Source: Streptomyces sp. GSL17-111 (GTDB lineage: Bacteria; Actinomycetota; Actinomycetes; Streptomycetales; Streptomycetaceae). Taken from it: 64,000 bases of DNA. How positions within the stretch are numbered: position 1 is the stretch's first letter; each line of letters begins with the position of its first letter. The translations under genes were made by a program, and so were the position numbers. The notes under the pieces are model-generated. The model saw nothing but the letters and a program-made list of their open reading frames with translations. It did no database searches and was not told where the DNA came from. Location: the NCBI RefSeq assembly GCF_037911585.1, contig NZ_JBAJNS010000001.1, positions 5,925,001 to 5,989,000 on the forward strand, given 5' to 3'. This document shows, piece by piece, positions 7,901-10,900 of this stretch.

Positions 7901-10900
7901 CCGGCTGCTGGAACACGTCCGCGACCTGGACGCGGGCGGCGGAGCGGCGACCGGCCGGATCGCCGCGTCCCTGGCGACGTCACGCGCCGCGCTCAGCCAC
8001 CGCGCCGTCCTCATCGGCTCGGACCCGGTCGAGTTGCGTCAGGCACTCGAAGCCCTTGCCGAGGGCCGCGAAGCCGTCGGCACGGTGACCGGCGTCGCCG
8101 GCTCCGCCCAGACCGGCCCGGTGTTGGTGTTTCCGGGGCAGGGGTCGCAGTGGTTGGGGATGGGTCGGGAGTTGGCGGCGTCCTCGGCGGTGTTTCGGGA
8201 GTCGCTGGAGGAGTGTGCGGCGGCGTTGGAGCCGTTCACGGATGGTTGGTCGCTGTGGGAGGTGTTGGAGAGCGATGAGGAGGTGTTGTGGGGTCGGGTG
8301 GATGTGGTTCAGCCGGTGTTGTGGGCGTTGATGGTGTCGTTGGCTGGGTTGTGGCGGTCGGTTGGTGTGGTGCCGTCGGCTGTGGTGGGTCATTCGCAGG
8401 GTGAGATCGCGGCGGCGGTGGTGGCTGGTGGTTTGTCGTTGGTGGATGGTGCGCGGGTGGTGGGTTTGCGTTCGCGTGCGTTGCGGGTGTTGGCGGGTCG
8501 GGGTGGGATGGTGTCGTTGGGTGTGGGTGCTGAGGTGGCGGGGGAGTTGGTGGGTGGTTTTGGTGGTCGGGTTTCGGTTGCGGCGGTGAATGGGCCGGGT
8601 TCGACGGTGGTGTCGGGTGAGGTGGGGGCGTTGGATGAGTTGGTGGGTGTGTGTGAGGGGCGTGGGGTGCGGGTGCGTCGGGTTCCGGTGGATTATGCGT
8701 CGCATTCGGTGCAGGTGGAGGAGTTGCGGGAGCGGATCCTTGCTGACCTTGCTCCGGTGTCGCCCAGGTCCTGTGCTGTTCCGTTGTATTCGTCGGTGAC
8801 GGGTGGGCGGATTGATACGGCGGTGATGGATGCCGGGTATTGGTATGAGAGTCTGCGGTCGTTGGTGCGGTTCGGTGAGGCGACGGATGCGCTGCTGGGC
8901 GATGGCCGGTCGGTGTTCCTGGAGTGCAGCCCGCACCCCGTGCTCACGCCCGGTATCGAGGAGACCCTGGAAACCGCCGGCGCCGACGGCACCGTCCTCG
9001 GCACCCTGCGGCGCGACGAAGGCGGAGCGGAGCGGTTCCTGACCGCGCTGGCCCTGGCGTGGACCGCAGGAGTCGACGTCACCTGGTCGAACCTGTTGCC
9101 CGCGCACGGCCGCGCCGAGCTGCCGACGTACGCCTTCCAGCGCGACCGCTACTGGCCCAAGCAGGCCCTGACCGCAGACGTGTCGGCCGTGGGCCAGTCG
9201 CGGCTCGGCCACCCCCTGCTGGGCGCCGCCGTCGCCCTTCCCGACGGCGGCCTGGTGCTCACCGGACGGCTCGCGCCGTCCGCCCACGCCTGGCTGGCCG
9301 ACCACAACGTGCTCGGCACGGCCCTCGTGCCCGGCACCGCGCTCGTGGAGATGGCACTCCAGGCCGGTGACCACGCCGGCTGCGGCGTGCTGCGCGAACT
9401 CGTCCTGCAGACACCGCTCGCCCCCGCGCCGGACGGCGTCGCCATCCGGGTGGTTGTGGGCACCGCCGAGGACGGCGGCGACCGCACGGTGGAGATCTTC
9501 TCCCGTCCCGCCGAGGAGGCGGACTGGGTCCGTCATGCCACCGGCCTGCTGGGCGTCCCGGAGACCCCTGCCCTTCCCGGCCCGGGCACGACCGGTGACG
9601 GGGTCTGGCCCCCGACCGGCGCGCGCCCCGTGGACCTGGCCGGTTACTACGACGGCCTGGCCGCCGCCGGATACGCGTACGGCCCCGCGTTCCGGGGACT
9701 GCGGGCCGCGTGGCGACAGGGCGACACGGTCTTCGCCGACATCGCCCTCGACGAGGACCTCGACACCGGCGGATTCGGCGTGCACCCCGCGCTGCTCGAC
9801 GCCGCGCTGCACGCGGCCGGCCTCGCCACCCCGGCCGGAGGAGACCAGGGCACCCGGCTGCCGTTCGCGTGGAAGGGCGTCCGCCTCCACGCCACCGGCG
9901 CCACGTTCCTGCGCGTGACGCTCACCACCGGGCCGGACGGCATCATCGTCCAGGCCACCGACCCGGCAGGTCAGCCGGTGGTGACCATCGACTCCCTCGT
10001 CCTGCGCGAGATCACCCCCGACGTCCTCTCCCAGGCGCTGACCCAGGCCCAGGACCACACCGTCCGCACCACCCTCTTCGCCCTCGACTGGACACTCCTG
10101 CCGGAACCCGGGAACCCGCCACCCGACACCACCGACTGGGTCACCACCAGCCCCTGCGACGCCGGCACGGAGCCTGCCGGCACGACCCCGCCCGCACCGG
10201 TCACGGTGCTCGCCCTGCCGGACCCCGCACCCGAGGCCGGCACCGCGGACGCCGTCCGGCGGACCACGCGGGACGTCCTGCGTGCCGTCCAGGCATGGCT
10301 CGCCGGTGAACAGCCCCCGCAGGCACGCCTCGTGGTCGTCACCCGGGGCGCCGTCCCCGCCGCACCCGGACAGGCCGTGACCGACCTCGCGGGAGCGGCC
10401 GTCTGGGGCCTGCTGCGAGCGGCCCAGACCGAACACCCCGGCCGCATCGTGCTGCTCGACCGTGACCCGGCCGGCGGCGACGACGACACCTGGACCTCCT
10501 GGGCCGTCGTCGACGACGAACCGCAGTTGGCCGTCCGGGACGGCCGGGCCCGGGCACCTCGCCTCGCCCACGCGGACACCGCGACCGCCACCGCGCTCGC
10601 GCTCCCCGCCGGACCGACCGCCTGGCGGCTCGACGTCACCGACGACGGCACCCTCGAGAACCTGGCCCTCGTCGCCGAACCCGAGGCCGACGCCCCCCTG
10701 GCACCCGGTCAGGTCCGGGTCGCCGTGCGCGCCGCCGGAGTGAACTTCCGGGACGTCCTCATCGCCCTCGGCATGTATCCCGACCAGGCCCGGATGGGCG
10801 CCGAGGCGGCAGGCGTGGTGACCGCGACCGGCCCCGGCGTCACGGACCTCGCCGTCGGCGACCGCGTGTTCGGCTTCTTCAGCGGCGGCATCGCCGACCG

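Follow-up and report, generated by a model that had tools for sequence, protein, structure and literature searches.

The locus and its PKS cluster

The window, a stretch of 64,000 nucleotides from the main contig of Streptomyces sp. GSL17-111 (forward-strand positions 5,925,001 to 5,989,000), contains a type I PKS gene of five modules. No later PKS gene was observed in the cluster to which it belongs, which covers about 180 kb (~5.773 to 5.952 Mb) near the end of the contig and in which 31 AT domains were detected. Pfam assignments gave the module order KS-AT-KR-ACP, then KS-AT-DH-ER-KR-ACP, then three modules of KS-AT-KR-ACP. The AT of the second module, AT2, carries the motifs GHSQG and YASH, a combination which we take to denote a methylmalonyl-specific AT, and an earlier note on this DNA had correctly counted it as the one YASH AT of the gene beside four of the HAFH type. 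The relevant features of the window are as follows, an AT being termed homogenised when it is closer to a paralog than to its positional ortholog.

1890..26582, + strand: five-module type I PKS gene (open reading frame, translation and Pfam domains per module)
3600..4481, + strand: AT1 (HAFH), unskewed and non-homogenised, the internal negative control
6549..7772, + strand: KS2, unrecoded; nearest relatives the same-position orthologs and, within the genome, KS3 and KS4
7835..7883, + strand: recoded islet of 49 bp in the KS2-AT2 linker, identical to sequence upstream of two other copies
8118..8938, + strand: very probable GRINS copy over AT2 (YASH), a homogenised G/T-recoded tract; PF00698
8741..8780, + strand: patch inside AT2 that accounts for 15 of the 26 sites at which AT2 departs from the consensus of its four fellow copies
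8939..9140, + strand: post-AT linker of module 2, of the methylmalonyl type and without recoding; its sequence has diverged from that behind each of the other four copies
9210..10025, + strand: DH2, unrecoded flank (Pfam)
14201..15400, + strand: GRINS region over AT3 (HAFH), from skew and GRINS calling
18581..19510, + strand: GRINS region over AT4 (HAFH), from skew and GRINS calling
23261..24490, + strand: GRINS region over AT5 (HAFH), from skew and GRINS calling

Directly 5' of the PKS gene lies a zinc-dehydrogenase-type gene (532-1815, + strand), and the end of the PKS gene is adjoined by a LuxR-type regulator with an AAA ATPase domain (26771-30295, − strand). Orthologs of the cluster, located here on the main contig, reside on linear plasmids of two other Streptomyces, on both of which the PKS gene is preceded, at the place of the former gene, by one annotated as crotonyl-CoA carboxylase/reductase, ccrA, the product of which makes unusual alkylmalonyl extender units, and followed at the corresponding place by an AAA ATPase gene. 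Sugar, P450 and transporter genes are also annotated in the plasmid-borne clusters; a search of papers gave no assignment of the cluster product.

Composition of AT2

Windowed analysis recorded a GC skew of +0.56 and an AT skew of −0.62 at 8101-8700, between flanks with GC skews of +0.04 (7501-8100) and −0.07 (9001-9600). Over AT2 itself (8124-8936) the GC and TA skews were 0.52 and 0.56 at all positions and 0.84 and 1.00 at third positions, the latter differing sharply from the values for KS2 (−0.20 and −0.42), and the break in composition previously reported at AT2 is therefore real. The accompanying description of the flanks as almost exclusively C-ending was overstated, the figures for the 29 cluster KSs pooled being 54% C and 39% G. 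AT2 is not the only recoded AT of the gene: AT3 (third-position GC and TA skews of 0.48 and 0.85), AT4 (0.34 and 0.74) and AT5 (0.59 and 0.96) are also recoded, if more weakly, and AT1 (−0.43 and −0.29) is not.

AT2 is one of five YASH ATs, 97% identical in DNA, within the single ~180-kb cluster, and pairs of these copies differ at just 1 to 27 of 816 bases. Third-position skews over the five ranged from 0.84 to 0.91 (GC) and from 0.97 to 1.00 (TA), with a pooled third-position composition of 0.1% A, 4.4% C, 71% G and 24.5% T, compared with 4.2% A, 51.6% C, 39.3% G and 4.9% T in 217 control ORFs; the fraction TTG/(TTG+CTG) for leucine was 112/145 in the copies versus 240/5221 in those ORFs. 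None of 1570 windows in the control ORFs exceeded a third-position GC skew of 0.8, and five passed the weaker threshold at which an AT was called skewed (third-position GC >0.2, TA >0.5). Because the ORFs had been selected for GC3 ≥0.8, a wholly recoded gene would have been excluded by that choice alone, so that a gene-call-free control of 400 kb from the same genome is the fairer one: none of its 3840 AT2-length windows had both skews above 0.25 on one strand (best window 0.18), whereas around the cluster (220 kb) 124 of the 2192 windows did.

AT2 as a very probable GRINS copy and its edges

The paper that defined GRINS is reportedly that of Nivina et al. 2021 in PNAS. In the sections available of PMC9899208 and PMC10394414, GRINS are stretches of at least 500 bp (about 1 kb) with >80-90% identity elsewhere in the PKS and with GC and TA skews above a cut-off of 0.15 (PMC9899208) or 0.25 (PMC10394414), and PMC10394414 gives the stricter description of ~1 kb, >90% identity within the same PKS and GC/TA skew >25%. 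When they were called by an adaptation of the procedure in the available part of PMC9899208, with window identity here taken from BLAST, the region over AT2 (8111-8980; 870 bp) had a mean best identity of 0.96, a GC skew of 0.51 and a TA skew of 0.56, values within the length, identity and skew limits of the procedure and also within the stricter description as far as PMC10394414 was available. A total of 28 GRINS were called in the 220 kb around the cluster, four of them inside the window; 400 kb of scattered control DNA yielded none. The edges, the trees and the homogenisation itself all bear signs that the copies have recombined or undergone gene conversion.

Identity to the other four copies was ~42-62% before 8096, 90-98% thereafter and 65-68% again at 8932, so that the edges are as abrupt as first described. 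Comparison with each of the four places the start of exact identity at 8118, and its end at 8935 in one case and at 8938 in the other three. The 5' edge is common to the copies although they sit behind three kinds of KS-AT linker, and the mutual likeness of the other four extends ~200 bp further, into the post-AT linker. Position 8118 is nevertheless not the outermost trace: the islet at 7835-7883 lies further upstream and was found identically upstream of the copies at main-contig positions 5897762 and 5906786. The 40-bp patch at 8741-8780 may go back to a separate conversion or be a remnant of the AT that was there before, and both islet and patch look like separate short tracts.

Orthologous clusters and concerted evolution

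The 3.5-kb KS2-AT2-DH2 stretch matched S. akebiae plasmid NZ_CP080648.1 at 85.7% and S. albidoflavus plasmid NZ_CP109246.1 at 84.8%, and DH2 (measured at 9200-10050) was ~85% identical to both orthologs. The PKS module order is the same on both plasmids as here, and the five YASH positions are present in all three clusters. Across five YASH modules in three genomes, the nearest AT was a same-genome paralog in 15/15 cases, while the nearest KS was the same-position ortholog in 15/15, as were the downstream stretches, again in 15/15. AT identity was 97.9, 99.2 and 91.7% within the three genomes and 82.5% between same-position orthologs; for the KSs the equivalent figures were 76-77% and 89.3%. 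In the resultant trees the ATs group by genome and the KSs by position, each such group having support of 100/100 except the S. akebiae ATs (98/97). At the protein level AT2 was 98% identical to a paralog, and 88% and 83% to its orthologs. The S. akebiae YASH copy designated ak_5 had in-frame third-position skews of 0.67 and 0.96. Two copies were found in a congener, G334; their mutual identity is 99.9%, and their identity to those here 79%.

Within-cluster copies were thus closer to one another than to positional orthologs for 15/15 ATs and 0/15 KSs and, judged by these comparisons, the five YASH modules show concerted evolution, limited there to the AT. Since the AT copies group by genome rather than by position, homogenisation continued after the lineages had split; in that sense the word "recent" was apt in the earlier note, but it does not extend to the recent swapping-in of a foreign AT. 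The concerted evolution is best explained by gene conversion, to which both trees and edges point, and the combination of sharp edges, position-specific KSs and genome-specific ATs makes conversion within substrate class the best explanation. It is accordingly very probable that AT2 is a GRINS copy kept near-identical by recurrent within-cluster conversion inside its substrate class, the choice of extender unit being apparently unaffected.

The extender unit of module 2

The most credible of the alternative explanations, considered unlikely here but not negligible, is that module 2 did acquire a different extender unit through GRINS conversion, in an event older than the ancestor shared by the known clusters. 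In its favour, module 2 is the sole YASH module of the gene, and KS2 groups with the KSs of malonyl-type modules. Against it, YASH occupies the position in three orthologous or collinear genes, namely those of S. akebiae, S. albidoflavus and G334, and the post-AT linker of module 2, which is unrecoded and unlike the linkers behind the other copies, is already of the methylmalonyl type. In the collinear gene of G334, the YASH AT at position 2 had skews of 0.79 and 1.00 and the other four ATs were HAFH and unskewed; the best G334 match to KS2 falls off the collinear position, and that genome was therefore used for collinearity and motif only. Linker typing took in 29 of the 31 cluster ATs, and by leave-one-out was right for post-AT linkers in 165/166 cases and for KS-AT linkers in 97/150, which renders the latter useless for typing.

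The specificity motif was unchanged at 27/27 orthologous positions in S. akebiae and 26/26 in S. albidoflavus. Taken with the YASH orthologs and the linker type, these counts run contrary to the proposal that a domain exchange had altered the extender unit, and the role claimed for GRINS outside their computed definition, diversification of related clusters by change of AT specificity, was not seen here. As far as can be seen, copying into module 2 would have replaced like with like, and GRINS conversion can thus continue across species splits without visible change in AT specificity.

Relationship of skew to homogenisation

In this genome, homogenisation was recorded for 20/20 skewed ATs and for no unskewed AT (0/7 when compared with S. 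akebiae, 0/6 with S. albidoflavus); restricting the comparison to malonyl ATs gave 15/15 skewed versus 0/5 unskewed. These counts leave out those of the 31 ATs for which the plasmid stretch concerned held no reciprocal KS ortholog (four for S. akebiae, five for S. albidoflavus); the plasmid stretches start inside or beside PKS genes, and the corresponding orthologs may lie outside them. KS paralogs exceeded orthologs in DNA identity at 1/27 positions (S. akebiae) and 2/26 (S. albidoflavus), confined to the two skewed KSs, and at no position in protein identity.

The three clusters have almost the same set of homogenised ATs, whatever the strength of the skew, which is graded from strong here, through moderate in S. 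akebiae, to weak in the malonyl ATs of S. albidoflavus. Malonyl ATs below the skew threshold were nonetheless homogenised in 12/17 cases in S. akebiae and 14/19 in S. albidoflavus, observations which contradict strong skew as a prerequisite for conversion. The excess of homogenisation did rise with third-position GC skew (Spearman 0.60 for S. akebiae, 0.75 for S. albidoflavus).

Codon-level selection acting on each AT separately, with no conversion, could produce likeness of this kind, in that a third position reduced almost to two letters makes the DNA of similar proteins alike. We consider it improbable. Protein-level comparison gave the same split between skewed and unskewed ATs as did DNA, so that likeness forced by recoding does not explain the homogenisation, and such selection accords poorly with the closer match of the AT2 protein to a paralog than to its orthologs, with the one exact 5' edge common to the copies, with a 49-bp islet shared by three of them, and with pairs separated by so few base differences.

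Search for a foreign source

The earlier note had proposed that AT2 was recently swapped in from an unrelated cluster of another organism. The search for a donor covered the genome itself, 120 relatives, 392 congeners (both sets including this genome), genome contigs, for which 80 of 584 confirmed loci were kept, and plasmids; the contig and plasmid searches may leave out the records nearest to this genome. With the best few candidates scored per genome, the best long matches elsewhere, among the matches listed, were 77% (relatives), 79% (congeners) and 87% (plasmids), the last lying in an orthologous cluster, and no donor near 97% was present among the long matches listed for relatives, congeners, contigs and plasmids. 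Short stretches elsewhere score higher, for example 91% over 46 bases.

In a quick tree search with 106 ATs the five copies formed one clade (99% SH-aLRT), the nearest neighbour of which was a skewed AT of Streptomyces sp. man185, and in an equally quick KS tree the closest grouping of KS2 was with two KSs of its own gene, KS3 and KS4 (95% SH-aLRT). The differing histories of AT2 and KS2 indicate that AT sequence moved independently of the KS. The incongruence anticipated between AT and KS trees was thus found, but the sisters of AT2 proved to be those of its own cluster rather than of an unrelated one. Skewed ATs are scattered among unskewed ones on the AT tree, with at least 14 changes of state; they numbered 30 among the 102 non-malonyl ATs, a share inflated because part of the sample had been gathered for its similarity to AT2.

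The incongruence with KS2 and the abrupt edges are what a foreign swap would leave, but the closest DNA to AT2 lies in four modules of its own cluster at 97%, with nothing comparable among the long matches listed elsewhere, and its nearest relatives are thus not those of some unrelated cluster in a different organism. The scatter of skewed ATs counts against such a swap, as does the loss of C, which extends synonymously even to the first base of leucine codons and, together with the near-absence of third-position C and A, suggests a strand bias rather than a donor's codon preference. A foreign origin for AT2 is accordingly very improbable, and sharp breaks in codon usage within PKS genes are not in themselves evidence of horizontal transfer. 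Equally hard to credit is a one-time past duplication of modules with no later exchange, which would provide five copies of one AT in one cluster but leaves the grouping of copies by genome, at five positions in three clusters, unexplained.

Source of the skew and proposed mechanism

Four-fold sites of AT3-AT5 on the branch leading to this genome showed 48 changes towards G/T and 16 away, compared with 61 towards and 103 away in the KSs (Fisher p 3e-7, treating sites as independent, which conversion tracts violate); the AT3-AT5 trend was the opposite on the branches of S. akebiae (10 versus 56) and S. albidoflavus (12 versus 81). The AT3-AT5 changes here included 30 of C>G and 16 of C>T, an excess of the former which rules out cytosine deamination alone as the source of the skew. 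The bias extends to the protein: between AT2 here and that of S. albidoflavus there are 44 amino-acid differences, at which the first two codon bases, in an unpolarised comparison, were G/T-richer here in 30 cases and poorer in seven; for whole codons, the skewed third base included, the figures were 31 and three. Runs of at least three G numbered 38 on the coding strand of AT2 and two on the template strand, an asymmetry which would suit R-loops.

In the mechanism proposed, the coding strand of AT2 would have been largely purged of C and A wherever the protein allows, over a tract of ~820 bp in module 2 extending from the AT start to the SPHP motif. Recurrent gene conversion among the modules of one cluster, for which we infer the cell's homologous recombination as the agent, would keep the copies near-identical, and its partners would be chosen within substrate class, YASH with YASH and HAFH with HAFH, so that domains could be homogenised without visible change of extender unit. 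We suggest only tentatively that the skew results from repeated conversion, or is left behind by it, and is not its trigger; a strand bias introduced in the course of conversion or of the associated repair would in that case drive recoding strong enough to alter the protein. The graded skew across the three clusters makes the question of whether skew causes or follows conversion a testable one.

Comparison with known systems

GRINS and the concerted evolution of ATs have both been published, and AT2 is a further case. Like the GRINS described, the AT2 tract is ~1 kb long, >90% identical within the PKS, skewed, and located over an AT of a cis-AT PKS; it differs in that third-position skew in the five copies is near its limit. 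The azalomycin F PKS, in the available part of PMC9899208, has near-identical GRINS in two modules, spanning a KS-AT-DH-KR tetradomain. The presence of near-identical GRINS in separate modules is thus shared, and the tract in module 2 here, by contrast, does not extend beyond the AT, the small islet excepted. In the available part of their paper (PMC4256081), Medema et al. 2014 described AT clades specific to each cluster, even where two clusters make one and the same compound, with KSs free of such signs, and viewed conversion as near-neutral. The cluster-specific AT clades and spared KSs recur here, the difference being that homogenisation is tied domain by domain to skew, with unskewed ATs as controls; no treatment of skew was found in the sections available of PMC4256081. 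Nor, the defining PNAS paper aside, was any study that uses orthologous clusters to test, for each domain, how skew relates to homogenisation found in the available portions of the literature covered (PMC10394414, PMC9899208, PMC4256081, PMC11907408, PMC11915812, PMC10661043 and PMC9205934). What appeared to be a foreign insert thereby becomes a clean GRINS case, with three orthologous clusters of graded skew.

Further recoded regions in the genome

Strong GRINS also lie 3' of the ATs in four modules of the cluster (main contig 5776931-5777980, 5802431-5803480, 5862461-5863990 and 5866961-5868520), with 99% identity and skews of 0.44-0.54. Two KS domains (5859963-5861222 and 5864493-5865719) are recoded, each ~90% identical to a paralog, and the recoding process is thus not confined to ATs. 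A second PKS cluster (main contig 3458391-3477020) has its own GRINS on three YASH ATs, which are 70-73% identical to AT2, and seven GRINS were called in the 60 kb around it (3.44-3.50 Mb).
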